DNA of 57,018 nucleotides from Terriglobia bacterium (GTDB taxonomy: Bacteria > Acidobacteriota > Terriglobia > Bryobacterales > Bryobacteraceae), in NCBI GenBank assembly GCA_020073265.1, contig JAIQFN010000075.1, forward strand, positions 1 through 57,018, written 5' to 3'. The notes under the pieces are model-generated. The model had not been told where the DNA came from, searched no databases, and worked only from the letters and a program-made list of their open reading frames with translations. The position numbers and the translations under genes are program-made. Shown here in pieces: positions 2,431-54,027 of the stretch. Within the stretch, counting starts at the first letter, position 1. Each line of letters starts with the position of its first letter.

Positions 2431-2477
2431 GGCGTTCACGCGAGCCTGAACGCGGCACGCATGAGCGCGTGCGCCAC
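2431..2477 (-). repeat. 47-nt double-hairpin repeat, copy A (reverse orientation)
   Basis: Read on the minus strand it starts GTGGCGCACG and ends GAACGCC. Hairpin 1 has arms GCACGC/GCGTGC around loop CTCA; hairpin 2 has arms near GCGTTCA/TGAACGC around CTCG, with one mispair near the loop. It fills the gap between two convergent genes, 10 nt after the receptor stop and 4 nt from the propeller stop. It is one of six equal-length copies in the window. Confidence 0.85.
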
Positions 2478-2481
2478 CAAG

Positions 2482-4698
2482 TTACTTGACTACTACTTTT
2501 TCGACCGTCTGGTTGTCGAACTCGTCGGTGACGCGTACCGCAATTACCTGCTCGCCGGACGTACGATCCAGCTCCAGGCGATAGTCTTCCTCCGGGGAGT
2601 CCTCCAGCCGGGTGACGGGCTGGGCCAGCAGCCACTCTCCGCCATTGACTGAGTACTCGGCCCGGTCGATGTTGCTGCGCGCGTCACGCGCCTTCCAGCG
2701 GACCTCGACTTTGTTGCCTGAGATGGTCCCAGTCAGGTTGAGGATCTGCGGCGGCGTGTTGTCGATCAGGAACGGATCGCTGACCAGCGAGCTTTCCAGC
2801 GCCTGATCGCGCGGATTGCCGGGCGCATCCGACGCGGTGACGCGAATTTCGTATTCGCCGTCCGGAAACGCCGCGCTGTCCCAGCTCAGATATTTTTCCT
2901 TCACGCCATCCTTCAGGAGTTTCCAGGCGGATTCCTTCACGCCCCGGATCTCGACCTTGTAGACCAGAGCGTCGCCGTTCGCATCGATGGCCGCCCAACG
3001 TACGCTCTGGTAACCTTTGGCGTAACTCAGCGTTTGAGAGATCCCCACCTCCACCGAGGAGGACGAGGAAGTTCGCTTGGGCTGGCCGAGTGGCGGGAGC
3101 GTGAGGTTGGTGGACGGCGTCAAAGCGAGGTTAGACGCCGGGAAGCGGTAGTTGGGTGGAGCGACTTCGATCTCCTCGACCACGGGCGGCACGTTCTTCG
3201 CCAGATAGGCGATGTCGACGTAGGAGACCTCGGCCGCCGCAGCACTCGAAGAAGCGGCGAGTTCGATTTTGTATTGCAGGAAGCGCGACGCCGGAGATGC
3301 AGAGCGCCCGCCGCCGCAGGAATCGCACAGCGCTCCGGCCTGCGCGTCCGTTTGGATGGGCGCCCAGGGGCTCCAGTTGCTTTGCGGATGATTCAAGTTT
3401 CCGGCGCGGGTGAGTACTGATATGTTTCCTGAGCCGCGAAAACTGAGACGTCCCCAATAGGCGAAGGATCCCGCATCCAGGACTTCACTTTCGAAGGAGC
3501 CGGATTTCTCGAGTCCGGGTCCGACGCGGTAGACCTTTCCGATGTTCCCGGTCACGGCGTAGATTTCACCGTGGGATCCCGAGCCGAATCCGGTCACCTG
3601 CGTTGGCGAGGCGTCCAGCAGCAGCGTACTGAGCGAGTCGGAATCCAGCCGGTAAATCTTGCCTCGGTTTCCGGTCCCCAGCATGGGCCGGCCGTCGCGA
3701 TCGAAGGTGATGGCATACACGATGTCCTGGGAATCGGACCAGGCTTTTCGGGGCTCGCCGTCGGGGTTGATGCGATAGACATCGGAGCCGCCGGCGATGG
3801 CGGGAGCAACCGGCGCGGCGAGTCCGGCCTGCGGGTTGTTGCGCGACGTGGGCGCGATCACCGTAATGGTGGTCCCCGCGCCCAGAGTGGGCGGCGTCAC
3901 AACCGGAGCCTGAGCGGGAGCCTGAGGAAGAACTACGTTGGACTTGATGCCGGCGCCCGCGGCATAAATCGCGCCATCCTTGGCGACGGCTACGGCGGTG
4001 ATCTCACGCTTGGGCGCCTGATAGAGCACGAATCCCTGGCCGGAGGGCGACACGCGCAGAATCAGACCGCTGGGTTCGGTACCGACCACGAGGTTGTCGT
4101 GAGAGTCGAGGGCGAGCGAGCGCGCGTGGGTTTCTTCGGTCTTGAAAAATACCGTTCCGGCGCCCTGCGGCGTCACGCGAAAGATCTCGCCTTGCTCGCC
4201 GGTGGCGACAAACAGATCGCCCTGACTCGAGAAAGCCATGGCCCAGATGTATTTCTGGTGCGGATCGAAGAACACGGTCGGTTTTCCGGCGGAAGAAAGC
4301 TTGTAGATCTTGCCGTCCGGGTCCGTGGCGGCGTAGACCTGATCCTTGGAATCGACGGCGATGGCGTGGATTTCCAGGCCATCCAGTTCGGCGAAGGTGC
4401 TGCTCTTGCCGGAAGGATCGATGCGGAACAGCTTGGCCGATCCGCTGCCCGAGCCGCCGCCGGCGGTGTAGAGGTTCCCTTTCGAGTCGGCCGCGAGCGT
4501 CCACAGATAGGGCGTCGAGGAATCGAAGATCTCGGGAAACTCGGGCGCCAGAAGGAGCCGGCCATCACTGCGCAGGGAAAGATGCGTCAGGCTGCCTTTT
4601 TCGAAGTCGGAGCGCTCGTCTTGTTGCCAGAAGCGGGTTTTAACCGCGAAGCAGGTGGCGATGGCGGCGGCCACCGGCAGGAGTCGGAGAATTTTCAT
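2482..4698 (-). CDS. Secreted beta-propeller protein with C-terminal Ig-like region
   Basis: A 738-residue protein with an N-terminal export signal or anchor (MKILRLLPVAAAIATCFAVK). Residues about 60-390 hold repeated propeller blades of the pattern GNLYTAGGGSGSGSAKLFRI, then AVDSKDQVYAATDPDGKIYKL, and further copies, as in NHL or SMP-30-like propellers. The C-terminal third carries Ig-like stretches (PDGEYEIRVTASDAPGNPRD, then VRWKARDARSNIDRAEYSV). A proline/alanine-rich linker interrupts the blades near residues 260-300. The gene starts 6 nt after the stop of the S55 peptidase gene and is probably co-transcribed with it. The function is unknown; an extracytoplasmic binding or scaffold role is an inference. 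Confidence 0.8.
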   Translation of the reverse strand: MKILRLLPVAAAIATCFAVKTRFWQQDERSDFEKGSLTHLSLRSDGRLLLAPEFPEIFDSSTPYLWTLAADSKGNLYTAGGGSGSGSAKLFRIDPSGKSSTFAELDGLEIHAIAVDSKDQVYAATDPDGKIYKLSSAGKPTVFFDPHQKYIWAMAFSSQGDLFVATGEQGEIFRVTPQGAGTVFFKTEETHARSLALDSHDNLVVGTEPSGLILRVSPSGQGFVLYQAPKREITAVAVAKDGAIYAAGAGIKSNVVLPQAPAQAPVVTPPTLGAGTTITVIAPTSRNNPQAGLAAPVAPAIAGGSDVYRINPDGEPRKAWSDSQDIVYAITFDRDGRPMLGTGNRGKIYRLDSDSLSTLLLDASPTQVTGFGSGSHGEIYAVTGNIGKVYRVGPGLEKSGSFESEVLDAGSFAYWGRLSFRGSGNISVLTRAGNLNHPQSNWSPWAPIQTDAQAGALCDSCGGGRSASPASRFLQYKIELAASSSAAAAEVSYVDIAYLAKNVPPVVEEIEVAPPNYRFPASNLALTPSTNLTLPPLGQPKRTSSSSSVEVGISQTLSYAKGYQSVRWAAIDANGDALVYKVEIRGVKESAWKLLKDGVKEKYLSWDSAAFPDGEYEIRVTASDAPGNPRDQALESSLVSDPFLIDNTPPQILNLTGTISGNKVEVRWKARDARSNIDRAEYSVNGGEWLLAQPVTRLEDSPEEDYRLELDRTSGEQVIAVRVTDEFDNQTVEKVVVK

Positions 4699-4704
4699 TG
4701 ATGG

Positions 4705-6555
4705 CTACTTAACGGTGACTCGCAACGAATAGCTGCCCTCGATCATGAGGTCGAACGGAATGCTGCCCTGCTCGACGGCGCTTTCCGGAGAAGTCACGAA
4801 ATGGCGGCTCGCGGTGCGGCCGGTTTGCATCACGTTCATCACCGAGGGCGGAAGGCTGGGAAGCGTCTTGTCTTCGTAGAAGACCGTGGGGCGCGGCTCC
4901 ACCAGCGAGATGTACAGCTTGTTGTTGCTGCGCTCCTGGTTGATCAGCGACACGGTTTGAGGAATATCGATGAAGCGCGCCGACAGGCCCGCCACCGTCT
5001 GCATGCGGTTCAGCGTATCGGCGTCGCTCAGCAGGATGCGGTGCTCGCCCTTGGCCAGGCCGGCCGGGATCTTGAGCTGAAAGTCGCGTTCCAGGCGCTC
5101 GCCGCGATAGGGCCGCAGGAAAACCTTCACCGGCACTTCGGATCCCGCGTTCACTTCGCTGGATGGAATCCAGGCATTTTCGATGCTGGCCACGCGCCGT
5201 TCCGGAAAAATGTCGATGGTGGCGTCGACGCTGCGGAGCTTGGGCATGCTCACCGGATTCAGGAACAGGCGGTTGAACTTGTCGCCCCACCAGCCGGCCA
5301 GCAGCATGGGCGCGGGCGCCGGATTTTCGCTGGAGGCGAGCATGGTGGAAAGATTCATGCCGGGTTGGCCGTCCAACTCCACTTTTCCGCTCATCCGATA
5401 AGTGGTCTCGTCGGCGAAATCGTTGAGACCGGAAAGCGAGTTGAACAGAGTCAGCGTCATGAGATAGGGCGTCCACTTCTGGTGGACAAAAATGTTGAAG
5501 TGCAGGTCCTTTTCATTCCGGATCGCGTTGTTGTCGCCGAAGGAGCGCACCTTGACGCTGACGGGGACCATGGCCGCGGTGGATCCCAGTTCGCCCATGA
5601 TGGCGCTATGCCGGTCCTGCTTCAGCGCGCCGACGATTTCCGTGGCGTTGCCCATTTTGTTGGGCTGGAACGAAGAAGCCAGCGTCATGAGCACGTCGGC
5701 CTTGGCCATGGGCATGTCCACGGGTCCGAGATTGAAGAAAGAATGGCCGCACGCCAGCACGTGCTTACCGTCGTTGTAGGTGACGGTGCACATTCCACTG
5801 ACGCTCATGTCGCCGGTGACCAGCACCCCCGTGACGGCGTCGCCCGGCTGGAGCGAGCGCTGCCAGCCTGGGGCCGGTTTGGCGCTGAGGGTTGTGCTGG
5901 AGGCACCGCCGGCCGCTACCGTCATTCCCATCTGCTGGAACAGCGGAGAGAACTCGCGCAGCACGTTCTCATGGAAACCGGCGAAGGTGAGCGGCGTCTC
6001 GATCGGGACCATGGTGGAGCCGGAGGTGACGTTAGCCGAAGCGCCCGCCGACAGAACCTGCGCCAGAATGCCGGAGGGGACCGATAGGGATTCCTGCGCC
6101 ACCGCTTTCTCGGGCGTGCGCGCGTCCAACGGACGGGAATTGTCGAAATCGTTCACTTCGAGCATCAGCTCGATCGGCGTTATGCCGCAAATCGCATCCG
6201 GAGAGAAAACGCTGAACCTGAGCGCGACCGCGCCCACCAGCTTGCCGTCGATGTAAACCGGGCTGCCGCTCATTCCGCCCGCTACGTTGGTGCGCGTGGC
6301 CTTTCCGCCCATCTTGGCGAGAATCACGTCCTGGTTGGGTCCCCACTGATTCTTGAGGATGCCGATGATCTCGACGGGAATGGCTTCCGGTTCGTTGCCC
6401 GCCAGAACCGTCCAGGCATAACCTTTCATTCCGGGCTTGAGATCGGACTGTTTGAAGATCTGGACTTTTCCGGCTTTGGGGCGAACGGGCGCGGGTTCCT
6501 GGGCGGAGAGAAGAGACGAGCCCACCAGCGCCACAACGAGTGCGGCAAACTTCAT
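4705..6555 (-). CDS. SpoIVB-like (peptidase family S55) secreted serine peptidase
   Basis: A 616-residue protein with signal peptide MKFAALVVALVGSSLLSA. The motif GGMSGSPVYIDGKLVGAV at residues 93-110 carries the serine expected of S55 peptidases (S96 or S98), and a GH motif lies later in VLACGHSFFNLGPV. In SpoIVB as I know it the His segment comes first and GMSGSP last, so the order here is swapped. A strong Shine-Dalgarno AAGGAAGG (6561-6568) precedes the ATG. The propeller gene follows at once. Proteolytic activity is inferred from the motifs; the acidic member of the triad was not placed. Confidence 0.8.
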   Translation of the reverse strand: MKFAALVVALVGSSLLSAQEPAPVRPKAGKVQIFKQSDLKPGMKGYAWTVLAGNEPEAIPVEIIGILKNQWGPNQDVILAKMGGKATRTNVAGGMSGSPVYIDGKLVGAVALRFSVFSPDAICGITPIELMLEVNDFDNSRPLDARTPEKAVAQESLSVPSGILAQVLSAGASANVTSGSTMVPIETPLTFAGFHENVLREFSPLFQQMGMTVAAGGASSTTLSAKPAPGWQRSLQPGDAVTGVLVTGDMSVSGMCTVTYNDGKHVLACGHSFFNLGPVDMPMAKADVLMTLASSFQPNKMGNATEIVGALKQDRHSAIMGELGSTAAMVPVSVKVRSFGDNNAIRNEKDLHFNIFVHQKWTPYLMTLTLFNSLSGLNDFADETTYRMSGKVELDGQPGMNLSTMLASSENPAPAPMLLAGWWGDKFNRLFLNPVSMPKLRSVDATIDIFPERRVASIENAWIPSSEVNAGSEVPVKVFLRPYRGERLERDFQLKIPAGLAKGEHRILLSDADTLNRMQTVAGLSARFIDIPQTVSLINQERSNNKLYISLVEPRPTVFYEDKTLPSLPPSVMNVMQTGRTASRHFVTSPESAVEQGSIPFDLMIEGSYSLRVTVK

Positions 6556-6655
6556 TGGACCTTCCTTAATACTGTGATGCGCAGCACCGAACTGCTAGTT
6601 TCATTATCGTCCAGTTTTTATGTGCGTGGGAGTTTGCCGCGGGTACGGTACTGGT

Positions 6656-6871
6656 TCAGGGCTGAGGAATGGTGTGATCGGGGTTGTAGCCGCCGCCGGA
6701 GTCCTGGTCCTGCTCGGCGGCAGGAGGTGGAGGCGGAGGGATGGGCGGGATCGGGGCCGGCTCCGGCGATGGCTTCGGCTTGGTCATCTCATCGATCAGC
6801 GGTTGCAGGATGCCTCGGTCCGGCTCCGGCTGGCTTTGCTCCGTGCTTTTCGCGGGATCAGTGTGTTTCAT
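6656..6871 (-). CDS. Small proline-rich hypothetical protein
   Basis: A 71-residue reading frame with MKHTDPAKSTEQSQPEPDRG at the N terminus, then a central run rich in Pro, Glu and Lys (positions about 30-50), and a polar C terminus. It has no signal peptide, membrane segment or recognised domain and is probably disordered. An AAGGAGA-like ribosome site lies a few bases upstream on the minus strand (about 6878-6885), which supports translation. It stands alone between the S55 peptidase gene and a repeat-filled gap. Confidence 0.5.
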   Translation of the reverse strand: MKHTDPAKSTEQSQPEPDRGILQPLIDEMTKPKPSPEPAPIPPIPPPPPPAAEQDQDSGGGYNPDHTIPQP

Positions 6872-7017
6872 GGGGGTCTCCTTCTAGATGGATTCTAGGA
6901 GACGCTCTCCGGTGCGCCGCCCGCGGCAAAGGGCAACTTAGTGAAACGCATGCAAATAGAGCGGGGAGAACACGGTTACCGGCAAACCGTTAGGGGCTTG
7001 CTTGAAGAATCCGCCAA

Positions 7018-7119
7018 CCACTCCCTGACGGTCGCGGCTCAGCACCAGCCGTACGGAGCCGTGACCGTTAGGGAGCGGGGGGGCACAAGCCGTGCGGAGC
7101 CGTGACCGTTAGGGAGCGG
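7018..7119. repeat. Second dispersed repeat family: inverted arms plus an extra tandem arm
   Basis: The left arm at 7018-7040 (CCACTCCCTGACGGTCGC...) pairs with right arms at 7056-7078 and 7097-7119 (GAGCCGTGACCGTTAGGGAG...), so the right half is tandemly doubled. The pairing tolerates G-T style changes. The element ends 4 nt from the stop codon of the outer-membrane protein gene. The rest of the gap 6872-7123 shows only a partial extra piece (CCGTTAGGGGC near 6987-6998). The same unit recurs at 39617-39742. Confidence 0.8.
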
Positions 7120-7123
7120 GGTT

Positions 7124-7723
7124 CTAGAAGCTCAGGCCGAGCAGAAACTCAGTCTGGTTCAGGTTCGACGGGTAGGTGACGAAGCCGAGGACGGTGGCGT
7201 CCTGGCCCCAGCGCGAATAGCGCAGCTCGGGCGTGAATCGCACGCGCAGTATCTTGACGTCCACCCCGCCGCCGATGGCGAAGCCGGCGTTCGACAGGTA
7301 TGAAGCCTTGCTGCCGGTGGCGCGAAAGATGGGACCGGCCTCCACGTACGGATTGATCACCGGCGCGTGGAAGATATGGTACTTGCCGAGGATGGGGAAT
7401 TCCCAGGAGCTGATGTTGAACGCCGAGCGCGCCGGCGGCTGAGGCACCAGCGTGAAATCGGTGGTGAGATCGAGCGGGCGGTACAGCGCGTCGGCCTCCA
7501 CCGCGAAGCCGAACGGCAGGCGCAATTCCGCGAACGGGCCGATGACATAATTTTTGGAATCGGTGAAGGAGTGAACAAAGGTGTCGATGCCCGGTGTGGT
7601 GTGGTTCGAGAAGGCGTCCGACAATGGAACTCCGCCCTTGATGCCAATGGAGAACAAACGCTGGCTGAAGGCCGGCGCGGAGACGAACAGAAGCGGCACG
7701 GCTATCAACTTAAGAAGGCGCAT
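7124..7723 (-). CDS. Outer-membrane beta-barrel protein
   Basis: A 199-residue protein with signal peptide MRLLKLIAVPLLFVSAPAFS and alternating hydrophobic/polar strands typical of small eight-stranded OmpW/OmpX-like barrels (FSIGIKGGVPLSDAF, NYVIGPFAELRLPFGFAVEA, GFAIGGGVDVKILRVRFTPE). It ends in phenylalanine (FLLGLSF), as is usual for BamA-assembled barrels. Its role is not known. It lies 47 nt downstream of acpS on the same strand. A repeat starts right behind its stop. Confidence 0.75.
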   Translation of the reverse strand: MRLLKLIAVPLLFVSAPAFSQRLFSIGIKGGVPLSDAFSNHTTPGIDTFVHSFTDSKNYVIGPFAELRLPFGFAVEADALYRPLDLTTDFTLVPQPPARSAFNISSWEFPILGKYHIFHAPVINPYVEAGPIFRATGSKASYLSNAGFAIGGGVDVKILRVRFTPELRYSRWGQDATVLGFVTYPSNLNQTEFLLGLSF

Positions 7724-7770
7724 GCTGGATGGACGCGTGAGGTGAGATGCGTGTTACGATCGCCTGCGAA

Positions 7771-8148
7771 CTAGGCTTCGAGAATCACGATCGCGACACC
7801 CTCGCGCGCCGTATGTGTAATGGACAAAGCAATATTACGAACTCCCAAACTTTCAGCGATCTTGGCGGCTGCGCCGTGAAACTGCAGCGTGGGGCGGCCG
7901 GAGGCGAGATTGGCGACTTCGAAATCCTGCCAGCGGACGCCGCGCTTCCAGCCCGTCCCGATGGCTTTCATGGCGGCTTCCTTGGCGGCGAAGCGCGCGG
8001 CGTACCGTTCGTAGCGGTTGGCTTTGCTGTCGACGTAAGCAATCTCGGCTGGGGTATAAACGCGTTCGATGAAGCGCGGACCGTGCCGTTCGATCACCTC
8101 GCGCACGCGGTCGACTTCGGCGACGTCGATGCCGATGCCGACGATCAC
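7771..8148 (-). CDS. acpS: Holo-[acyl-carrier-protein] synthase
   Basis: This enzyme moves the 4'-phosphopantetheine group of CoA onto apo-acyl carrier protein in the cytoplasm, switching ACP on for fatty acid synthesis. The product is 125 residues, normal for AcpS. It shows the [12 protein letters not shown] start with the metal-binding Asp, the [12 protein letters not shown] motif, and the C-terminal [15 protein letters not shown]. The GTG at 8148 is chosen because it puts the family start MIVGIGIDV at residue 1 and overlaps the nikR stop by 4 nt, suggesting translational coupling. Confidence 0.93.
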
Positions 8149-8561
8149 AACCCCGCGCCCGTTGAGGTCAGGGTCAGGCGGCCATGCTTGACACCCTTGG
8201 TGCTGATCAACGCGTCGGCGATTTTTTTCACCACACCGGCCTTGCCTTTGACCACCAGAACCTCCAGACAATTGTCGTGGTCCAGGTGAACGTGCAGCGT
8301 GGAGAGAATGTGGTGGAAATGGGAATGCTGCAAGTCGGTGAGCTTCTCGTTGAGCAGGCGGACGTGGTGATCGTACACCAGCGTGACGGTGCCTACCACG
8401 TTGCTGTCGGGCCGCTCCCAGGTCTTTTGCACCAGTTCCTCGCGGATCAAATCGCGGAAGGCCTCCGAGCGGTTGGTATATCCGCGGGAAGCGATCAGTC
8501 GATCGAACTTCTCCAGAAGATCGGAATCGATGGCTACGCCGATGCGGCTGAGCTCGCTCAT
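8145..8561 (-). CDS. nikR: Nickel-responsive transcriptional regulator NikR
   Basis: A 138-residue regulator with an N-terminal ribbon-helix-helix (about 1-50: [33 protein letters not shown]) and a C-terminal ACT-like nickel-binding domain. Residues H79, H90, H92 and C98 (in [12 protein letters not shown]) match the Ni ligands H76, H87, H89 and C95 of E. coli NikR with a constant shift of three. With Ni bound, NikR tetramers repress nickel uptake genes. A Ni/Co ECF transporter is encoded divergently at 9832-12176, with a candidate operator in front. The unusual feature is its overlap with acpS. Confidence 0.93.
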
Positions 8562-8632
8562 TTGTATAGAGCGTAGCAAGACACGGTGGGGCCGGCGGGG
8601 CAGCAAGGGCGCTGGTGTATACTCCACAAGCA

Positions 8633-8651
8633 GCAACACGTCTGATGTTGC
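8633..8651. promoter_or_regulatory. Inverted repeat GCAACA-N7-TGTTGC in the nikR/SGNH divergent gap
   Basis: A perfect 6-bp inverted repeat with a 7-nt spacer lies between the divergent nikR and the 8661 gene, ending 9 nt before the TTG start of the latter. It could be an operator or a leader hairpin. A TATACT -10-like hexamer lies upstream at 8618-8623. No factor can be named from sequence. Confidence 0.35.
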
Positions 8652-8660
8652 GGGCTGACG

Positions 8661-28325: not shown

Positions 28326-29102
28326 ATGCCGATCCATCCGACGGCCATCGTTGACACTCAGGCGCGTATCGCCGACAACGCCGAAATCGGACCCTACTGC
28401 ATCATCGGAGCGAACGTCCAGATCGGCGCGGGGACGCGGTTGATGGCGCATGTCTACGTGGAAGGTGCGACCACCATCGGCGAAGACAACGCCTTCTATC
28501 CCTACTCGAGCATCGGCGTCGCCTCGCAGGACCTCAAGTACAAGGGTGAGCCCGCTGAAACGCGCATCGGGAACCGTAACCGGATCCGCGAGTTCGTCAC
28601 CATTCATCGTGGAACGGAAGGCGGCGGCCTGATCACCGAGATCGGCGACGATAACCTGGTGATGGCTTACGCCCACATCGCTCACGACGTGCGGATCGGA
28701 AGCCACACCGTGCTCGGCAACGGAGTCACTTTCGCCGGACACGTGGTGGTGGCCGACTGGGCGGTGATCGAAGCTTTCACCGGCGTGCATCAATTCTGCC
28801 GCGTGGGCCGGCACGCCTTCATCGGCGGATACAGCGTCGTCACCAAGGACGTCCTGCCGTTCTCTCTCACCGTGTCGCCGCGAGAATCCAAGGTGTTCGG
28901 AGAAAACAAGGTCGGCCTGGAACGGCGCGGCTTCAGCCAGCCGGTCATCGAGAACCTGCACAAAGTGTTTCGCCTGCTTACCAAGTCGGGCTTGAACACC
29001 ACGCAGGCGGTGGAACGCATCGGCGCCGAAGTCGAGATGGGACCCGAAGTAGAGGAACTGCTGGCCTTCATCGCATCGTCGGAGCGCGGGTTCGTCAAAT
29101 GA
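28326..29102 (+). CDS. lpxA: UDP-N-acetylglucosamine acyltransferase
   Basis: LpxA moves a 3-hydroxyacyl chain from ACP to UDP-GlcNAc, the first step of lipid A synthesis. The 258-residue product is a left-handed beta-helix with hexapeptide repeats (IHPTAIVDTQARIADNAEIG, VRIGSHTVLGNGVTFAGHV). The catalytic His lies in YAHIAHDVRIG, and AFTGVHQFCRVGRHAFIGG is typical. A C-terminal helical domain is present. Its stop overlaps lpxI by 4 nt. Confidence 0.96.
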   Translation: MPIHPTAIVDTQARIADNAEIGPYCIIGANVQIGAGTRLMAHVYVEGATTIGEDNAFYPYSSIGVASQDLKYKGEPAETRIGNRNRIREFVTIHRGTEGGGLITEIGDDNLVMAYAHIAHDVRIGSHTVLGNGVTFAGHVVVADWAVIEAFTGVHQFCRVGRHAFIGGYSVVTKDVLPFSLTVSPRESKVFGENKVGLERRGFSQPVIENLHKVFRLLTKSGLNTTQAVERIGAEVEMGPEVEELLAFIASSERGFVK

Positions 29103-29917
29103 GCAAGTACGGACTGATCGCCGGCAATGGCCGATTCCCGCTGCTGGCGCTCGAGACCGCGCGCGGCCTGGGCGATGAGGTGGTGGCCATCGCGATCCGC
29201 GAGGAGGCGTCGCCGGAAATCGAGAGCCTGGCTTCGCGCTGCCATTGGATATCGCTCGGCGAACTCAGCCGCCTGATTGAAATTCTCAAGGCCGAAGGCA
29301 TCACCGAGGTCGTGATGGCCGGGCAGGTGAAGCATGCCAGCATTTTTTCAGCCATCCGGCCGGATTTGCGGCTGTTCAAGCTGCTGGCCTCACTGCGGGA
29401 GAAAAACACCGACGCTTTGATCGGTGGCGTGGCCAAGGTTTTGGCGGAGGAAGGCATCCATCTGGGTGATTCCACTTCGCTTTTGAAGCCGCTGCTGGCA
29501 GGCGCCGGCGTTCTCACGAAACGAAAACCGTCCAGCGACGAGGAGCGCGACATCTCCTACGGCCGCCGCATTGCGAACACACTGGCCGGTCTGGATGTCG
29601 GGCAAAGCGTGGCGATTTGCGACCGCGCCTGCGTCGCCGTCGAAGCCATGGAAGGAACCGATGCGATGCTGGAGCGCGCGGCGTCGCTCGCGAACGGGAA
29701 GCCGCTGCGCCTGGTTAAAGTCTCGCGCCGCCGCGGGCACTTGCTGTTCGATGTTCCCGTCGCGGGCCCGCGCACCATCGAAGTCATGCGAGCTACCGGA
29801 ACCACGGCGCTCGCGGTGGACGCCGGCCGGACGCTGCTGCTCGATCGCGCCGAGATGCTGGAGCGCGCCAACGAATCCGGAATCACCGTGATAGGCTACG
29901 AGCCAGAACAAAAATGA
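29099..29917 (+). CDS. lpxI: UDP-2,3-diacylglucosamine pyrophosphatase LpxI
   Basis: LpxI hydrolyses UDP-2,3-diacylglucosamine to lipid X and UMP, replacing LpxH in many bacteria. The 272-residue product (old name DUF1009) has YGLIAGNGRFPLLALETARG at the start, VMAGQVKHASIF, DTxx-like GDSTSLLKPLLAGAGVL and VGQSVAICDRACVAVEAMEG. It is coupled to lpxA. Repeats follow right after it. Confidence 0.94.
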   Translation: MSKYGLIAGNGRFPLLALETARGLGDEVVAIAIREEASPEIESLASRCHWISLGELSRLIEILKAEGITEVVMAGQVKHASIFSAIRPDLRLFKLLASLREKNTDALIGGVAKVLAEEGIHLGDSTSLLKPLLAGAGVLTKRKPSSDEERDISYGRRIANTLAGLDVGQSVAICDRACVAVEAMEGTDAMLERAASLANGKPLRLVKVSRRRGHLLFDVPVAGPRTIEVMRATGTTALAVDAGRTLLLDRAEMLERANESGITVIGYEPEQK

Positions 29918-29941: not shown

Positions 29942-29988
29942 GTGGCGCACGCACTCGTGCGTGCCGCGTTCACACTCATGTGAACGCC
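29942..29988 (+). repeat. 47-nt double-hairpin repeat, copy B
   Basis: It starts GTGGCGCACG. Hairpin 1 is GCACGCA-CTCG-TGCGTGC. Hairpin 2 has a perfect 9-bp stem GCGTTCACA/TGTGAACGC around loop CTCA. It lies 24 nt after lpxI and faces copy C head to head. Confidence 0.9.
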
Positions 29989-30006
29989 TGGTCGGCTTCG
30001 GAACCC

Positions 30007-30053
30007 CGCGTCGACACGAGTGTCGACGCGGCACGCACGAGTGCGTGCGCCAC
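30007..30053 (-). repeat. 47-nt double-hairpin repeat, copy C (inverted partner of B)
   Basis: On the minus strand it starts GTGGCGCACG. Hairpin 1 is identical to copy B. Hairpin 2 is GCGTCGACA-CTCG-TGTCGACGC, a different but perfect 9-bp stem. An 18-nt spacer separates it from B, so the pair resembles a REPIN or BIME unit. It ends 14 nt before the next gene. Confidence 0.9.
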
Positions 30054-39616: not shown

Positions 39617-39742
39617 CGTGCTGAAAACCTTTGTAGCAACCCGCTCCCTAACGGTTACGGCTCTGTAAGTGACTCTGGACGGCTAGAATGCCGATTCTGA
39701 GCCGCGACCGTCAGGGAGTGGTTGCGCGGGTTTTTCAGCACG
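39617..39742. repeat. Second dispersed repeat family: long inverted repeat
   Basis: Arms at 39617-39663 and 39699-39742, separated by 35 nt, are inverted copies of the same unit, which runs from CGTGCTGAAAA through GCAACC and CTCCCT to CGGCTC. The core is the same as at 7018-7119. It ends 3 nt from the stop of the 39746 gene. The rest of the gap 39510-39745 holds the GC-rich hairpin and nothing else recognisable. Confidence 0.8.
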
Positions 39743-39745
39743 CTC

Positions 39746-47084: not shown

Positions 47085-47630
47085 ATGGACCTGACGCCTT
47101 CCCAAACCATCGGTCCGTTCTTTCATCTCTGCCTCACTCGCGACCGAGCGGAAGGGCGCCTCGCTGGTCCCGAAGCGAAAGGCGACCGCATCCGTCTCGC
47201 GTGCCGTGTGTTGGACGGCGACGGCGCTCCAGTGGGCGACGCGATGATCGAATTGTGGCAGGCCGACGCGAGCGGCATATACAATCACCCTGAAGACCCG
47301 CGCCGCGCATCGCACGATCCCGCATTTTGCGGCTTTGGGCGCCTTGCGACCGATGAGGAAGGGCGATGTGCCTTCGATACAGTCAAGCCCGGTCAGATTT
47401 CCGCGCTCGAGGCGCCTCACATCAATGTTTCGGTCTTCGCTCGTGGCTTGCTGAAGCGCGTCGCAACGCGCATCTATTTTTCGGCCACCGGCAAGGATCC
47501 CATTCTTGCGTTAGTTCCCGAGAACCGGCGCGATACCCTGCTGGCGCGCCGCGATTCTCGAAATCCGGCGCTGTGGAGCTTTGACGTTCACCTTTCGGGC
47601 GACCACGAGACGGTGTTTTTCGATATCTAA
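47085..47630 (+). CDS. pcaG: Protocatechuate 3,4-dioxygenase, alpha subunit
   Basis: The 181-residue partner of PcaH. It begins with the usual LTPSQTIGPFFHLCL and has MIELWQADASGIYNHPEDP and APHINVSVFARGLLKRVATR. As is normal for alpha subunits it does not hold a complete iron site. It starts one base after the pcaH stop. Confidence 0.95.
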   Translation: MDLTPSQTIGPFFHLCLTRDRAEGRLAGPEAKGDRIRLACRVLDGDGAPVGDAMIELWQADASGIYNHPEDPRRASHDPAFCGFGRLATDEEGRCAFDTVKPGQISALEAPHINVSVFARGLLKRVATRIYFSATGKDPILALVPENRRDTLLARRDSRNPALWSFDVHLSGDHETVFFDI

Positions 47631-47634
47631 CAAT

Positions 47635-48978
47635 ATGCCCGTGCGACTAATCGACAGCCTCGCCACTACCGCGCCGCTCGCCGAGATTTTCTCCGACGAG
47701 CAAATCCTGCAGGCCATGCTGGATTTCGAAGCAGCGCTCGCGCGCGCCGAAGCGCGAGTGGACGTCATACCGCTCGCAGCCGCCGAGGCGATCGCGAACG
47801 CCGCGCGAGCCGACGGGTTCGACGTCGCCAAGCTCTCCAGCGAGACCTTGCGAGCCGGAACGCCGGCCATCCCAGTGGTGAAAACCCTCACCGAGCGCGT
47901 GCGCGCCAGTGATCCCGACGCCGCCCGCTTCGTGCATTGGGGCGCCACCAGCCAGGACGTCACCGACACCGCACTGGTCTTGCTTCTGGCGCGCGCTCGC
48001 AAAATTCTGGCAGCCGACCACGCGCGCCTCATCCAGGCGCTGCGCACCCTGGCACAGAAGCACCAACGCACAGTCATGCTCGGCCGGACACTCTTGCAAC
48101 CCGCCCCGCCGGTAACGTTCGGCCTCAAGGCCGCCGGCTGGCTGGCCGCGGTCCGCCGCGGATGGAATCGCATCGACACCCGGATTAGCGAAGCCGCGAT
48201 GCTCCAGTTCGGCGGCGCAAGCGGCACCCTGGCAGCTCTCGGCGACAAAGGCGACGCGGTAGGCCAGGCGCTCGCAACCGACCTCGGCCTCCGCTACCCC
48301 GACGCCCCGTGGCACACCCATCGCGATTCGCTCGCGGCCATGCTCGCCGCCTGCGGCGTCCAATGCGGCTCGCTCGGAAAAATGGCGCGCGACATCGCCC
48401 TGCTGATGCAAGGTGAAGTCGCCGAAGCCGCCGAACCGTCAGGCGATGGCCGGGGCGGTTCCTCCACCATGCCGCACAAGCGCAACCCAGTGGCCTGCTC
48501 GTTGACGCTCGCCGCCGCGCATCGCGTGCCCGGCCTGCTCGCCTCTTTCCTCTCCGCGATGCTGCAGGAACACGAACGCGGCGCCGGCGGCTGGCAGGCG
48601 GAATGGCCCATCATCGGCTCTATCATCCAGGCCACCGGACTAGCCGTCGCCTCGATGGCGGAAGCGGCCGAAGGTCTGACGGTCGACAAAACGCGGATGC
48701 TCGCCAACATCCAAGCCACTGGTGGAAACATCTTCGCCGAGCGCGTCATGATGCTGCTCGGTGCGACGCTCGGCCGAGACGTCGCGCACAAGCTTCTCGA
48801 AGAAGCAACGCACAAAAGCGCGGCCGAGCGCCGCCGCCTGGTCGACGTTCTGGCCGAGATGCCGGAGATAACACGCGTCATTCCCGTCGCAACGCTCAGC
48901 AACCTGGATTCACCGGAGGACTATCTCGGCATGGCCGCCACGTTTCAGAAGCGGCTCCTCACGCCGCCCGAGCGCTAG
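47635..48978 (+). CDS. pcaB: 3-carboxy-cis,cis-muconate cycloisomerase
   Basis: PcaB forms 4-carboxymuconolactone from the ring-cleavage product. The 447-residue protein belongs to the fumarase/aspartase superfamily; the signature loop is GGSSTMPHKRNPVAC, and VHWGATSQDVTDTALVLLL is also typical. The ATG at 47635 (MPVRLIDSLATTAPLAEIF) is used; a longer frame reads back through pcaG. It is 5 nt downstream of pcaG. Confidence 0.95.
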   Translation: MPVRLIDSLATTAPLAEIFSDEQILQAMLDFEAALARAEARVDVIPLAAAEAIANAARADGFDVAKLSSETLRAGTPAIPVVKTLTERVRASDPDAARFVHWGATSQDVTDTALVLLLARARKILAADHARLIQALRTLAQKHQRTVMLGRTLLQPAPPVTFGLKAAGWLAAVRRGWNRIDTRISEAAMLQFGGASGTLAALGDKGDAVGQALATDLGLRYPDAPWHTHRDSLAAMLAACGVQCGSLGKMARDIALLMQGEVAEAAEPSGDGRGGSSTMPHKRNPVACSLTLAAAHRVPGLLASFLSAMLQEHERGAGGWQAEWPIIGSIIQATGLAVASMAEAAEGLTVDKTRMLANIQATGGNIFAERVMMLLGATLGRDVAHKLLEEATHKSAAERRRLVDVLAEMPEITRVIPVATLSNLDSPEDYLGMAATFQKRLLTPPER

Positions 48979-49020
48979 TGTGCGGTCTCAGCTAATGTAT
49001 TACAGTGGCCATCGCAGGAT

Positions 49021-49067
49021 GTGGCGCACGCACTCGTGCGTGCCGCGTCGGCACTCTTGCCGACGCC
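49021..49067 (+). repeat. 47-nt double-hairpin repeat, copy D
   Basis: It starts GTGGCGCACG. Hairpin 1 is GCACGCA-CTCG-TGCGTGC. Hairpin 2 is GCGTCGGCA-CTCT-TGCCGACGC, a perfect 9-bp stem with its own inner sequence. It lies inside the pca gene run, 42 nt after pcaB and 42 nt before the next start. Confidence 0.9.
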
Positions 49068-49109
49068 AGCGGGACGCCACACTAGCCTCGCTCAGCAAGG
49101 AGATCGAAC

Positions 49110-50267
49110 GTGCCTTTCGCAACCGTTGACGACACGCGCCTGTTCTACCGCCTGGAAGGGAGCGACCACCGGCCAACCCTTGTGCTGGCGCATTCCCTCG
49201 GCCTCGATCACAGTTTGTGGGACGCCCAGACGCCGGACCTGCTGGCGCACTTCCGCATTCTGCGCTTCGACACCCGCGGGCACGGAGCATCCGACGCGCC
49301 GCCAGGTGACTACTCCATCGAGCGCCTGGCCCGCGACGTTCTCGGACTGACCGACGCGCTTGGCATCGCCAGCTTCGCCTACTGCGGAATCTCGCTCGGC
49401 GGCTTCGTCGGCCAATGGCTTGCCGCAAACGCGCCCGATCGCCTGACAAGCCTGGTTCTAGCCAACACTTCTCCCAACGCCGGCCCGCCGGCCAACTGGG
49501 AAACACGGATTCAAAACGTGCTCGCGAACGGAATGAACGCGCTCGGCGACATGTTTCTGGAACGCTCGTTCTCGCCCGCTACCCTGGCCCGCTCGGAGCC
49601 GTGCGTCGATTCACTGCATCGCACCTTCCTCGGCACGAATCCGCAAGGGTACGCCGGCTGCTGCGCCGCCATCCGCGACATGAACCAGACCGCGTCACTC
49701 GGCAAGATCCGTTTGCCGGTTCTGCTGATCGTCGGCGACCAGGACGTCGGCACTCCCTGGACCGGCCATGGCGAAGTGCTCGCGCGCGAAATCGCCGATG
49801 CGCGTGTCGTTCGGCTGCCCGCGGCTCATCTCTCCAACGTCGAGTGCCCACGATCGTTCACCTCGGCGCTGCTCGATTTCCTGACGCCAGCGTCCGCTGA
49901 AGACCCCCTCCGAGCGGGCTACAAAGTGCGCCGCGGCGTGCTCGGCGACGCCTATGTCGACGCCGCCGTCGCGAAAACCACCAACTTCACTCGCGAGTTC
50001 CAGGAGCTGATCACCCGCTACGCCTGGGGAACAATCTGGACGCGGCCTGGCCTGGACCAGCGCACCCGCCGCCTGCTGGTCCTGGCGATGACCGCCTCGC
50101 TAGGACGCTGGGAAGAGTTCCGCATGCACCTGCGCACCGGCCTGGCCCACGGCCTGGAACCCTGCGACGTCAAGGAAGTGCTGCTCCAAGCCGCCATCTA
50201 CGCCGGCGTCCCGGTCGCCAACACCGCATTTCATATCGCCCAGGAAGAGATCACCCGTCCGTCGTAA
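49110..50267 (+). CDS. pcaL: PcaL: 3-oxoadipate enol-lactonase fused to 4-carboxymuconolactone decarboxylase
   Basis: A 385-residue two-domain enzyme for successive steps of the pathway. Residues 1-260 are an alpha/beta-hydrolase (PcaD) with nucleophile S95 in YCGISLGGFV, D212 in IVGDQDVGTP and H240 in LPAAHLSN. Residues about 266-385 are the decarboxylase (PcaC) with YKVRRGVLGDAYVDAAVA, TRRLLVLAMTASLGRWEEF and IYAGVPVANTAFHIAQE. The GTG at 49110 is fixed by a perfect AAGGAG 7 nt upstream. The fusion is known as PcaL in some actinobacteria. Confidence 0.94.
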   Translation: MPFATVDDTRLFYRLEGSDHRPTLVLAHSLGLDHSLWDAQTPDLLAHFRILRFDTRGHGASDAPPGDYSIERLARDVLGLTDALGIASFAYCGISLGGFVGQWLAANAPDRLTSLVLANTSPNAGPPANWETRIQNVLANGMNALGDMFLERSFSPATLARSEPCVDSLHRTFLGTNPQGYAGCCAAIRDMNQTASLGKIRLPVLLIVGDQDVGTPWTGHGEVLAREIADARVVRLPAAHLSNVECPRSFTSALLDFLTPASAEDPLRAGYKVRRGVLGDAYVDAAVAKTTNFTREFQELITRYAWGTIWTRPGLDQRTRRLLVLAMTASLGRWEEFRMHLRTGLAHGLEPCDVKEVLLQAAIYAGVPVANTAFHIAQEEITRPS

Positions 50268-50278
50268 AATGAGTTCGC

Positions 50279-50644
50279 ATGGAACACTACACCTGGGAGT
50301 CCGTCCCGCTCGAAGTCATGAGCGAATTGATTTCGCGCAAAGTCATCAGCGGCGACAAAGCCATGATCGCGCAAGTCTTCCTGAAAAAAGACGCCGTCGT
50401 GCCGGAACACCACCACGAAAGCGAACAGCTCACCTACATCCTGGCCGGCGCTCTGAAGTTCCAGCTCGAAGGACGCGAAGTCATCGTGCGTCAGGGTGAA
50501 GTGCTGCGGATTCCATCCAACGTGCCGCATCGCGCCGTGGCGCTCGAAGACACCCTGGACGTCGACGTGTTCTCGCCCATCCGCGCCGACTGGCTCACCA
50601 AAGACGACGCCTATCTCCGCCGCGGCGAGCGCGAAAAGAGCTAA
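50279..50644 (+). CDS. Cupin-domain protein
   Basis: A 121-residue single cupin. The metal-binding motif 1 is VPEHHHESEQLTYILAGALK (His, His, Glu) and motif 2 includes IPSNVPHRAVALED (His). It is 11 nt behind pcaL and is probably the last gene of the operon. Small cupins next to aromatic pathways may be isomerases, decarboxylases or sensors; which applies cannot be told. Confidence 0.85.
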   Translation: MEHYTWESVPLEVMSELISRKVISGDKAMIAQVFLKKDAVVPEHHHESEQLTYILAGALKFQLEGREVIVRQGEVLRIPSNVPHRAVALEDTLDVDVFSPIRADWLTKDDAYLRRGEREKS

Positions 50645-50645
50645 C

Positions 50646-51248
50646 CTACTTCAGCTCGACTTGAACTTCCGAAGCTGTCCGCTCTCCCACGTTTTCAGTC
50701 GCGTGTTTCAGAGCATCGCGCCACGCAATCTCGCCAGGGTGCCGCAGGTTGTCAACCGCCCTTCCGTCCGCCATCAGCATGGTGGTGTGCAACTCGGTGA
50801 TGTACACCACCACGTAATGCGGATGCTCATGCATCGGAGCTTTGAGATGCGGTTCCAGAATCGTGCGGATCACTCGCACGCGTTCGTTCTCCAGCAACAC
50901 GATGTGGTGTTCCGGATCCAACTTGACCGGATCCAGAGCGACCGCCGACGACCTCGGCGCGCCGGGCTTCAGCTCGATCCTGACGGCTTCCAACGGCTGA
51001 TCCGCGGCGTCCGCTTCAGCCGCCTTGCCCGCGGGAAAGTAGACCGCGTCACCGGCCTTGCGTGCGATTCCGTCCGTCACGAAAACCACAACCGAATCCG
51101 ACTGTGACCGCAGTAGCGCCTTCCCGTGCGCCGCCTGCTTCACCCGCGTCACTCGCACCCAGGCGTTGTCGATTTCCGGCTTGGCCGCATCCTGGGCCGC
51201 GACGCTTCCGGCCGCCAGCGCGATCAATAACAACAGGCGTGCATTCAC
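50646..51248 (-). CDS. Secreted cupin-like hypothetical protein
   Basis: A 200-residue exported protein (signal MNARLLLLIALAAGSVAA). Two similar beta-rich halves are visible: NAWVRVTRVKQAAHGKALLR with VVVFVTDGIARKAGDAVYFP, then NERVRVIRTILEPHLKAPMH with EHPHYVVVYITELHTTMLM. This looks like a bicupin with metal-type histidines only in the second half (PMHEHPH). Its start overlaps the stop of the upstream fusion gene by 4 nt. Confidence 0.7.
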   Translation of the reverse strand: MNARLLLLIALAAGSVAAQDAAKPEIDNAWVRVTRVKQAAHGKALLRSQSDSVVVFVTDGIARKAGDAVYFPAGKAAEADAADQPLEAVRIELKPGAPRSSAVALDPVKLDPEHHIVLLENERVRVIRTILEPHLKAPMHEHPHYVVVYITELHTTMLMADGRAVDNLRHPGEIAWRDALKHATENVGERTASEVQVELK

Positions 51249-53770
51249 GGCCGCGTGCGCCCGCGCCAGTAGCGGGCTTCCGACTCAGCGACGGCTCGCT
51301 TCACCACCGGACTAACCAAATCGAACCCATCCTTGTTCAGATGGTGATTGTCAGGCCCCAAAAGCTCGCGGCGCGGCTGGCCGTCCGCTCCCAGCAGCAG
51401 CGGGTTCAGATCCACGAAATGCAGTTTCCGGTCCTGCGCCGCGATCGCCTTCAGCCGATCGTTCGCCGCGCACACCGCATCCCAAACCGCCAGCCGCGCG
51501 ATGCTCGGCCGAATCGAAAGAACCACTATCTCGGTATCCGGCAGCGCAGCGTGGATCTTCGCGACAAACTCGCGGAAATGGTCCGCGATCATCTCCGTCG
51601 GCATCCCGTAGGCAGTGTCGTTGTCGCCGGAATAATACACAATGGTCGACGGCTTCAGCGGAACGATCAACCGATCCGCGTAGTACGTCGTCTCCGAAAT
51701 CATCGAACCGCCGATGCCGCGATTGATGGTCCCGTACTCCGGAAAATAATGCTTCAGGTCCCAGCCGGCGATGGTCGCGCTCCCGGCAAACAGCACGCCC
51801 TCCTTCGCGGGCGAATCCTTGGTGTCCCGCGCCAGCATCTGATCCACGCGAGCCTTCCAGCGCTCCGGCGTGATCTCCTTGTAGTAACCCAGGCGAACCC
51901 ACTGCACCTCCCGCCGCGGAGTCTCCTGCGCTTGCTGGGCTTGCGCCGCCGGCGCGGCATCCGGCCCGAACGCCAGCAGCACGTTCCCCGGACGCCCGCC
52001 ATGCGTGCCGTAACCGGAATTGAAATACAGCATCCCTCCCACCACCGTCGGCGGAGCGCCCACGATCGACGCGCCCTTGCCCGGCACCCCGTTCACCGTT
52101 TGGAACGCGTGATTGGTATCGACCTCCCACAGCATCGATCCATCTTTAGTCGAAAACGCGCGCATCGCTCCATCGTTCGATCCCGAAAAAACCACGCCCG
52201 GTATCACCGTGACTGCCGCAGCCTGCGCGGCATTGCAGGTACGCCCGGCTTCCGTACACTTCGGAGCCGCAGGCGGCACGAACCAAACCCGCTCCCCAGT
52301 CGCCAGGTTCACCGCATGCAGACCGCCCGGCTTCGCGCGATAGTTATCGGCCACCGGAAAATACGCATGCTCGCCGTCCACCGCCGATCCCCACTCCATC
52401 CCGCCGTTCGCGCTCCCCTCGCCGGCGCGATATCGCCACAGCACTTTGCCCTTGTCGTCCGGATCCATCGCGAATCCCAGCCCGGACTTCTGCCCGATGA
52501 TGATCACATCCTTGCCGCTCGAAAGCTTCGTCAGAATAGGCGGATTGCCGAAGTCAAAATCGGGACCATCTTCCGCCTCGCCATCCGGACAAAACGGGCT
52601 CTGCCTCCTCGGACCGCAACCCGAAATGCTCACGTCGGCCGGCTCCGAGACCGGCTGCATGCTCCACAGGATTTTGCCGGTCTTGATGTCCAACGCCAGC
52701 ACCGCATCGCAAGTCGGCTGGAACGGACCGCTATAGCAATTGCCCGTGCTCACATAAATCGCGCCGCGCTTCGCGTCAATCGTGGGCGACGACCAGATCG
52801 CCGCGCCGCCCGGTCCCCAGAATTGTCCCCCGGCCTTGGTCTTCACTCGCGGCTTGGCCGCTTCCGCGATCGTGTAGGTCTTCCAGATCACCGCGCCGGT
52901 CTTCGGATCCAGCGCCGTCAGGCTCCCGCGAAACGTGCAGCAATCGTAGTTCGTGCTCGTCCCCATGGTCTCTTCGTAAGATGCCATCGGCACGTACAGC
53001 TTGCCGTCGTACAGCCGCGTCTGCCCCGTGATCCGCGCCACCGCGTGCTCTTCCACCCTGCGCGACCACAGCTTCTCGCCGGTGAACGCGTCCACCGCGT
53101 AAGCGAACGCGCTGTTGTCGCCGAAGTACGCCGTGTACTTGCCGCCTTCGCGCGGCGCGATCGTGATCGGCGATCGCACCCCGCCCACCGCGCTGAAAGT
53201 CCAGTAAATGCAGCCGGTCCGCGCGTCCAGCGAGTACACCGTCCCGTTCTGACCGCCCGTGAACAGCCGCCCGCTCACCACCGTGATTCCGCCCCAGGCC
53301 GAATTGGAATCGGGAAACCCGAAGGCCCATTTCAGTTTCAATCGCGGCACGTCTTCCGCGCTGATGCCCGCTTGCCTGGCGGGCTGGAACGCCGTGTTGG
53401 TGATGTCCGGGGACCAGCCGTTCCACGCCGGACCCGAGGAAGGATCGGAAAACGCAGGCTGCGCCGTGCATCGGCCCGTCGTCGCTCCACTCACATCGCC
53501 GCCCAGTTTCTTGCCGGTGAGAAACTCGGCCAGCGCGCGCCGCTCCACTCCGTTGAGCCGCGACCCCGGAATGCGCATCACGCCGTTCAATGCTTCCAGC
53601 ACCGCTTCGGGCGACCGCTCGCGCAACGCCTCCGGACTGGGCGCTCGCGTCGTCGCCGACTCGTCGTGGCACACCGCGCAGTCGCGTTTATAAAGCGCGG
53701 CTCCATCGGGCGCGTCCGCCGCCATCGCCGAACCAACCAAGGCCAACACCAGCAGAAACCGCAAGCTCAT
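51245..53770 (-). CDS. Cytochrome c - PQQ beta-propeller - SGNH hydrolase fusion
   Basis: An 841-residue exported protein. ATG at 53770 opens signal MSLRFLLVLALVGSAMA. A cytochrome c domain follows with CAVCH at residues 31-35. Residues about 110-620 are a quinoprotein propeller with WGGITVVSGRLFTGGQNGTV, NYDCCTFRGSLTALDPKTGA and further GxLYxxDxxTG blades, closest in look to polyvinyl-alcohol dehydrogenase. From about 659 an SGNH hydrolase is fused: LFAGSATIAGW (Ser 664), INRGIGGS, YYSGDNDT, PDNHHLNKDGF. The redox part would oxidise an alcohol in the periplasm; the SGNH part would be an esterase. Both are inferred. Confidence 0.85.
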   Translation of the reverse strand: MSLRFLLVLALVGSAMAADAPDGAALYKRDCAVCHDESATTRAPSPEALRERSPEAVLEALNGVMRIPGSRLNGVERRALAEFLTGKKLGGDVSGATTGRCTAQPAFSDPSSGPAWNGWSPDITNTAFQPARQAGISAEDVPRLKLKWAFGFPDSNSAWGGITVVSGRLFTGGQNGTVYSLDARTGCIYWTFSAVGGVRSPITIAPREGGKYTAYFGDNSAFAYAVDAFTGEKLWSRRVEEHAVARITGQTRLYDGKLYVPMASYEETMGTSTNYDCCTFRGSLTALDPKTGAVIWKTYTIAEAAKPRVKTKAGGQFWGPGGAAIWSSPTIDAKRGAIYVSTGNCYSGPFQPTCDAVLALDIKTGKILWSMQPVSEPADVSISGCGPRRQSPFCPDGEAEDGPDFDFGNPPILTKLSSGKDVIIIGQKSGLGFAMDPDDKGKVLWRYRAGEGSANGGMEWGSAVDGEHAYFPVADNYRAKPGGLHAVNLATGERVWFVPPAAPKCTEAGRTCNAAQAAAVTVIPGVVFSGSNDGAMRAFSTKDGSMLWEVDTNHAFQTVNGVPGKGASIVGAPPTVVGGMLYFNSGYGTHGGRPGNVLLAFGPDAAPAAQAQQAQETPRREVQWVRLGYYKEITPERWKARVDQMLARDTKDSPAKEGVLFAGSATIAGWDLKHYFPEYGTINRGIGGSMISETTYYADRLIVPLKPSTIVYYSGDNDTAYGMPTEMIADHFREFVAKIHAALPDTEIVVLSIRPSIARLAVWDAVCAANDRLKAIAAQDRKLHFVDLNPLLLGADGQPRRELLGPDNHHLNKDGFDLVSPVVKRAVAESEARYWRGRTRP

Positions 53771-53793
53771 CTCCGTAATTATGCCACCAGCAT

Positions 53794-53840
53794 CGGGCGC
53801 ACGCACTCCTGCGTGCCGCCTTCACACTCCCGTGAACGCC
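53794..53840 (+). repeat. 47-nt double-hairpin repeat, copy E
   Basis: It starts CGGGCGCACG (the only copy without GTGG). Hairpin 1 is GCACGCA-CTCC-TGCGTGC. Hairpin 2 keeps TTCAC/GTGAA around a CTC core, with mispairs at its base and tip. It lies 23 nt upstream of the fusion gene start, between divergent genes. Confidence 0.85.
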
Positions 53841-53864
53841 CGGCGGGAGTAGTATCATCGCCCT

Positions 53865-53957
53865 ATGCCCCCCGCGAAATTCATCATCGCCACGGCGGCC
53901 TCGCTGACTCTGTCGATCGCATTCCTCACCGCCTGGGCGGCATCCGATGGTCCCTAG
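53865..53957 (+). CDS. Possible 30-residue membrane peptide
   Basis: An ATG frame encodes MPPAKFIIATAASLTLSIAF and ten more residues, ending TAG: one hydrophobic helix with a Lys in front, like a signal peptide cut off after the cleavage region. A weak GGGAG lies about 16 nt upstream. It lies exactly between repeats E and F. It may be a small membrane peptide or the stump of a deleted secreted-protein gene. Confidence 0.3.
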   Translation: MPPAKFIIATAASLTLSIAFLTAWAASDGP

Positions 53958-53980
53958 GCCTGGAAAACTAGTGCCCCCTC

Positions 53981-54027
53981 GTGGCGCACGCACTCCCGCG
54001 TGCAGCGTCCCCACTCATGAGGACGCG
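53981..54027 (+). repeat. 47-nt double-hairpin repeat, copy F
   Basis: It starts GTGGCGCACG. Hairpin 1 is GCACGC(A)-CTCC-(C)GCGTGC. Hairpin 2 is GCGTCCCCA-CTCA-TGAGGACGC with one mispair. It ends 13 nt before the enoyl-CoA hydratase ATG and so lies in its leader. It has the same direction as copy E. Confidence 0.9.

Follow-up and report, generated by a model that had tools for sequence, protein, structure and literature searches.

What has placed six copies of one short palindromic sequence in a single stretch of DNA? The window analysed here, that is the whole stretch of 57,018 nucleotides, is contig C62 of the source genome, that of a soil bacterium (G000; 6.41 Mb, 131 contigs, 98% complete); G001 to G004 denote congener genomes, and numbers preceded by L and C denote loci and contigs. 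We consider it very probable that the 47-nt element is a twin-hairpin REP (repetitive extragenic palindrome), a non-autonomous mobile repeat spread by a RAYT (REP-associated tyrosine transposase; TnpA_REP-like, of the Y1/HUH type). Its transposition is something we infer from copy number, structure, covariation, a linked RAYT gene, the bases at its junctions and its presence or absence between species.

The 47-nt element in the window and in the source genome

The first copy (2431–2477, minus strand; 70.5 bits) lies between convergent predicted genes at 138–2420 (+) and 2482–4698 (−). Two copies form an inverted pair with the GTGG heads outermost. Its left half (29942–29988, +; 76.7 bits) starts 24 nt past the stop of a predicted gene at 29099–29917 (+), and is separated from the right half (30007–30053, −; 74.7 bits) by an 18-nt spacer (29989–30006), the sequence of which varies among the eight intact pairs of our genome sample. 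The copy at 49021–49067 (+; 75.1 bits) is flanked by predicted genes at 47635–48978 (+) and 49110–50267 (+), and the copy at 53981–54027 (+; 69.0 bits) lies upstream of one at 54041–54817 (+). A decayed copy at 53794–53840 (+; 64.9 bits), with the head CGGG and two mismatches in hairpin 2, is found between divergent predicted genes. All gene calls are from our own codon-usage script and not from a standard annotator.

The six copies align without gaps over 47 columns at a mean column identity of 88%, which bears out the number, positions, strands and fixed length given in a preliminary description of this DNA. The GTGG start reported there for five copies (the exception being 53794) and the CTCN loop in both hairpins, seen in six of six, also held. 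The same description gave every copy the arms GCACGCA/TGCGTGC; the two adjacent hairpins are indeed there, but their arms vary among the six and three copies have mismatches. In the copy at 2431 hairpin 1 contains a G–T pair and hairpin 2 a single mismatch, that at 53981 has one mismatch per hairpin, and that at 53794, one of three copies folded singly as DNA, did not reach the canonical form. With up to three mismatches, the hairpin-1 pattern has 14 matches in the window when palindromic places are scored once per strand; 100 shuffles averaged 2.55 matches, and all of them fell short of 14.

The family extends far beyond the window. A 21-nt hairpin-1 pattern with up to two mismatches matched the whole source genome 167 times, and never when read backwards. 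Since 115 of the 121 full copies in our sample fit this pattern, about 176 copies are expected genome-wide, and we put the total at roughly 170–180. A covariance model built from the six window copies gave at least 150 matches in the source genome. The sample consists of the window and 60 fetched, partly overlapping stretches (1.156 Mb together), 59 of the 60 having been chosen because they hold known copies. At E ≤ 0.01 the model found 130 matches in it, 126 of them distinct; three belong to a 41-nt family described below, and 115 of the other 123 are exactly 47 nt long. The scan proposed in the preliminary description thus returned well over a hundred copies of fixed length rather than just six.

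Each unit consists of GTGG, one base (C in the window copies), a 7-bp stem with a CTCN loop, a linker base (C or A in the window copies), a 9-bp stem with a CTCN loop and one base, often with NGG beyond. The head is GTGG in 116 and GTAG in five of the 126 matches, and stands 1 nt from the stem. Sixteen of the 115 copies of exactly 47 nt, at scattered loci, are identical to the consensus and 17 more are one base off. In the sample alignment 96% of the cells are paired across both hairpins, and hairpin 2 occurs as several stem types. Ten of the 16 base pairs vary on both sides in a compensatory manner, eight of them in hairpin 2, and the covariation score of 0.224 (0.082 when shuffled) was reached in none of 500 shuffles; the alignment was fitted to the model's own structure, which favours pairing, and such changes fit a role as DNA or as RNA alike.

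The preliminary description regarded GTGG as a signature different from that of known REPs. This reading has to be given up, as GT[AG]G, with GTGG included, is the canonical REP head in section 12 of PMC6006769 and Table 1 of PMC3686654. At 1 nt, the distance from head to stem is within the 0–2 nt typical of REPs, and as in REPs the element is mostly extragenic and present in high copy number. Its length also falls within the ~21–65 nt of REPs, but there are two consecutive conserved hairpins in place of a single or bulged one, and because of this we file the element as a REP variant.

Elements 3 to 57 bases from contig ends (C81, C19, C26) and elements interrupted by pairs of N (L085, L185, L187) were also observed, and the twin hairpins seem to hinder assembly. 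Two other repeats were noticed in the window. One of ~127 nt (39619–39745) is 82–92% identical over 84–132 bases to 14 places in the source genome among the matches listed, and its GAGCCGCGACCG part resembles inverted repeats around a Y1 gene of a different type in congeners (L077, L084, L088). The last 215 bases (56804–57018) are 99–100% identical to nine other places in the source genome among the matches listed, at least seven of them at contig ends, the pattern that an insertion sequence interrupting the assembly would produce.

A RAYT gene flanked by the element

A Y1 transposase gene flanked by the 47-nt element was found in a congener. At locus L080 of G001, copies lie at 1361–1407 (+), 2008–2054 (+) and 2074–2120 (−), the last two as an inverted pair on one side of the gene. 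An orthologue in G003 (L085) is 96–98% identical, with flanking elements broken by N, and diverged versions of the 47-nt element adjoin four other RAYT genes of the genus (L078, L079, L082, L083). The covariance model matches next to the gene at E < 0.001 in seven of the 23 Y1 loci of the genus; the element is of the 41-nt type at L033 and of the 47-nt type at the other six.

The predicted product of L080 matches PF01797 (Y1_Tnp) with 34.1 bits, the cut-off being 23. Among NCBIfam models it fits REP_Tyr_transpos best (E = 2e-21; 76.3 bits, slightly short of the cut-off of 80), and the IS200 model reaches 31.1 bits with a cut-off of 55. The translation has the HUH motif NHVH as well as YIERNP. 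In a PDB search at E ≤ 0.01 the sole match was 4er8, 'TnpArep' (E = 4e-4 over 47 residues), which we take to be the E. coli protein. By its domain, its HUH motif and the ranking of the REP model over IS200, the predicted protein classes as a RAYT/TnpA_REP. The RAYT reading frame of L080 shares its 3′ end with the REP (1342–1407), which would encode the final residues of the protein; similar tails occur in L079 and others. Apparent RAYT remnants beside copies in the source genome were rejected for this reason, as the matches are the REP itself, which encodes the last residues of the L080 frame.

A close cognate RAYT of the 47-nt family was not found in the source assembly. Residues 1–186 of L080, used as a query, retrieved only one gene from the fetched source-genome sequence, and the genome has three Y1_Tnp genes in all. 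The gene retrieved (L033; C86:42637–43292) is the only near RAYT there, 51–52% identical to L080, and is flanked by an inverted twin-hairpin element of 41 nt, built of GTGG, 1 nt, a 7-bp stem, 1 nt and a 6-bp stem. With up to three mismatches the pattern of this 41-nt family has 148 matches in the source genome and none in the control; several stem types are present and some of the matches are 47-nt copies. It has no match in the window. Since no other gene of the source genome is closely related to L080, the C86 RAYT might move the 47-nt copies in trans. We regard this as quite unlikely, since a separate clade unites the RAYTs that adjoin 47-nt CTCN elements, as though every RAYT were dedicated to a REP of its own. 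A Y1_Tnp gene flanked by the same element, which the preliminary description had named as support, is present in congeners (L080 in G001, L085 in G003) but not in the source assembly. The assignment of the 47-nt element to a REP-like family is nevertheless upheld by copy number, fixed length, intergenic siting and these element-flanked genes.

The REP/REPIN and RAYT systems, such as the GTGG REPs of Pseudomonas and the E. coli REPtron, are alike in the GT[AG]G head, the palindrome, the high copy number, the intergenic siting near 3′ ends, the Y1 gene between inverted copies and some pairs with heads outward. They have one stem-loop per unit, whereas here there are two consecutive ones in 47 nt, mostly as singles. 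The ends of IS200/IS605 elements (IS608, ISDra2), as treated in PMC6006769, likewise combine a guide tetranucleotide 5′ of a hairpin with a HUH Y1 enzyme; our element differs in having no IS body and in carrying both hairpins side by side in one short unit. The CGTC-tagged repeats of section 16 of PMC3733652 are also short intergenic palindromes, but their tag differs and they are described there without association with a transposase gene. The same section describes degenerate GTAG-1 units adjoining unrelated stem-loops, and TIRYT/TIRtrons, in which double palindromic TIRs, some repeated hundreds of times per genome, flank Y1 transposase genes, an Acidobacteria group among them. The likeness of our element to the latter, double palindromic repeats flanking Y1 genes, is one of description and not of compared sequence. 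The view that no named family has this twin CTCN hairpin can be kept in part: a named family with this sequence was not found in the published literature searched, but double palindromes flanking such transposases have been reported (PMC3733652, section 16).

Junctions, inverted pairs and presence between species

The midpoints of 114 of 123 copies are intergenic; of 4000 places drawn at random from the sampled stretches, 418 are. The base directly before the head is a pyrimidine in 106 of 121 copies; the commonest dinucleotide there is CC (26 of 121), followed by AC (20), TC (17) and AT (15). GG follows at +2 and +3 past the unit in 49 of 121 copies, against a background of 0.08. For another REPtron, section 21 of PMC8266576 shows that the guide tetranucleotide contributes to the choice of where cleavage occurs, CA and CC both being possible cutting points in a GTGG substrate; the prevalence of CC before the head may fit this.

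Among 118 copies, 51 lie between tandem genes on the same strand as the element and 23 between tandem genes on the opposite strand, 20 are in convergent and 15 in divergent contexts, and nine are within predicted genes. The median distance from the upstream stop to the head is 5 nt for same-strand tandem copies and 4 nt for convergent ones. Whichever end is taken, a stop is no more than 10 nt away for 64 of the 109 intergenic copies; the 15 divergent ones cannot qualify. These positions bring up the possibility that the copies are chiefly RNA hairpins used by the host, terminators or 3′-end stabilisers past stops, and were mobile only in the past. Consistent with this, the head is at most 10 nt past the stop in 38 of the 51 same-strand cases, the 20 convergent cases show a gap of at most 10 nt at the head 18 times and at the tail 15 times, and same-strand orientation is favoured 51:23. 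Clusters of hairpins are also reported to have been put forward as terminators (PMC8355165). There is, however, no run of T past the unit (T in 18 to 42 of ~120 copies at each of +1 to +10), Rfam gave no match in the window at the gathering threshold, presence differs between species at orthologous junctions, and section 15 of PMC3733652 gives siting near gene 3′ ends as a general trait of REPs. We therefore consider host use as the main explanation very unlikely; a secondary use by the host may exist alongside mobility.

Eight intact inverted pairs, the one in the window included, were found in the sample, all with GTGG outward and with spacers of 15–26 nt. As their spacer sequences differ, the pairs may be independent insertions. 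Comparison of the tail sides gave four further pairs with a shortened partner (tail-side of C21:7889, C92:73675, C35:5608 and C110:3207 in the source genome). By eye the shortened partner looks like a fusion of hairpins 1 and 2 between their like loops, leaving one hairpin. It is possible, though we think it somewhat unlikely, that inverted pairs (REPINs) alone move and that singles are half-decayed pairs. The eight intact and four shortened pairs agree with this, as does a gap that is wider on the tail side than on the head side, seen for 44 of the 51 tandem cases on the same strand and 16 of the 23 on the opposite strand. In the 100 nt of tail flank an inverted partner (score ≥ 12) was found in 20 of 120 copies, compared with one of 120 on the head side and 22 of 2000 random places, and 11 of 120 tail flanks score in direct orientation. 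Some 100 copies are thus without an inverted partner, and of the 16 consensus-identical copies two are in pairs, one is at a contig end and 13 have no intact partner, which counts against movement of pairs alone.

The RAYT and REP unit of G001 and G003 starts two bases past a stop (TAA-CC-GTGG), the gene upstream being presumably a GspE/PilB-type ATPase. At the same gene junction in the source genome the unit is absent and ATTTTAA alone lies between the two genes; the place is taken in G004 by another kind of GTGG twin-hairpin element, as judged by eye, and in G002 by other sequence. Five copies, the one at 49021 in the window and four of stretch L112, were also compared with congeners. No model match to the 49021 copy was found in the syntenic stretches of G001 and G003, nor to L112:1501 at its junction in G001, G002 and G003, nor to L112:7265, 11468 and 16172 in the G002 stretch, where the alignment is poor at 7265 and 11468. 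The slot of L112:16172 is occupied in G003 by a copy with a different stem past the same stop (59.5 bits) and in G004 by another palindrome; in G001 the alignment alone shows a copy that resembles the one in G003 and contains N. Conversely, a copy near L112:1501 is common to G001 and G003 (61.6 bits) and absent from the source-genome stretch. The G004 palindrome (L186), past the stop orthologous to that at L112:16172, is unrelated and reads GTGACAGAGGTG...CACCTCTGTCAC; related letters flank the Y1 gene L076.

Among the congeners compared, with aligned DNA ~65–84% identical, there was no empty site with closely matching flanks, and at L112:16172 the flanks of G002, which is without the element, are too diverged to fix the element's ends. 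The ends of the unit and the absence of a target duplication are accordingly provisional, and the differences between species fit gain and loss alike. Model matches occur in all five genus members (at least 150 each in three, then 101 and 26) and in 23 of 61 genomes of a family sample that includes two of the genus and was filtered more strictly; the spread across the family is patchy. An exact scan of named genomes with a 46-nt consensus, which may leave out source-genome records, gave six stretches, all in the Bryobacterales MAGs palsa_89, palsa_143 and palsa_144. One of the palsa_89 contigs, PMOK01000214.1, has the same REPtron as contig C66 of G001.

Movement of the twin-hairpin REP could proceed as follows. 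The two hairpins would fold once the DNA is single-stranded, and the RAYT would bind them together with the GTGG guide. One cut would follow the pyrimidine that immediately precedes GTGG and another would fall close to the NGG end, and the unit would be joined behind a pyrimidine at a new site. Surviving copies would be those where insertion harms least, often just past stop codons. Singles as well as inverted pairs would move, the exact mobile unit being itself part of this proposal.

Twin and single hairpins across the class

RAYTs similar to that of L080 (E ≤ 1e-30) are present in 46 of 299 genomes of the class. The elements beside 43 loci were inspected, 30 listed for the class and 13 from the genus. 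By script, elements could be paired on both sides in 27 of these, 14 double, 11 single and two with the second hairpin on one side (L074 and L081, labelled double); the script's rule for a second hairpin was satisfied by chance at 472 of 20000 random places. The other 16 loci had no pair: L242 and L248, with no REP by script, were dropped, and 14 were labelled from a one-sided element or, for L073, by eye. The tree was built from 40 RAYTs, leaving out L242 and L248, L085 (N in its elements) and L243 (the same gene as L033); the Y1 genes L031, L032, L072, L075, L076, L077, L084, L088 and L090 are also outside it.

In this tree one branch (support 96/98; recovered in 96% of 200 bootstrap trees) separates the 22 RAYTs with twin-hairpin elements from the 18 with single-hairpin elements, the labels having been assigned by an analyst who was not blind to the tree; L081, single in an earlier tree of 13 RAYTs, was relabelled once its element had been inspected. 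A single change of architecture is needed, compared with an average of 13.6 for shuffled labels, none of 500 being as low. The source family has twin types as well as five RAYTs of the single type; the remaining twin types are from one sister family (L227), and the remaining single types from families f5 and f6. The twin-hairpin architecture seems to mark one RAYT branch. The CTCN loop also occurs in seven of the 18 single types, and so need not have arrived with the doubling.

Tryptophan at positions 10, 60 and 170 of L080 is present in 18, 17 and 17 of the 18 single-type RAYTs, compared with four, four and none of the 22 twin-type ones; with one event on the tree, this link to architecture is a correlation only. 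As to whether one-hairpin REPs are the more often paired, a neighbour within 150 nt was found for 20 of 24 copies in G176, eight of 14 in G162 and 22 of 140 in the source sample; without the stretches holding RAYTs, the counts are 14 of 18 in G176 and two of eight in G162, too small and mixed to establish the proposal that follows.

We speculate, doubtful as this is, that a lone change in one RAYT lineage swapped a one-hairpin REP for a tandem two-hairpin REP. The second hairpin might be a second binding site for a paired transposase, replacing the inverted doublet and making the REP a self-sufficient single mobile unit. The prevalence of singles here would then be explained, because the two-hairpin unit would supply both sites alone.

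How REPs move is still an open question. The shift of architecture on one transposase branch, together with the three tryptophan positions, provides named residues and parts of the DNA for probing the recognition between RAYT and REP. Furthermore, many short repeats are reported for Candidatus Solibacter usitatus in PMC3174227, and the family described here may account for some of them.
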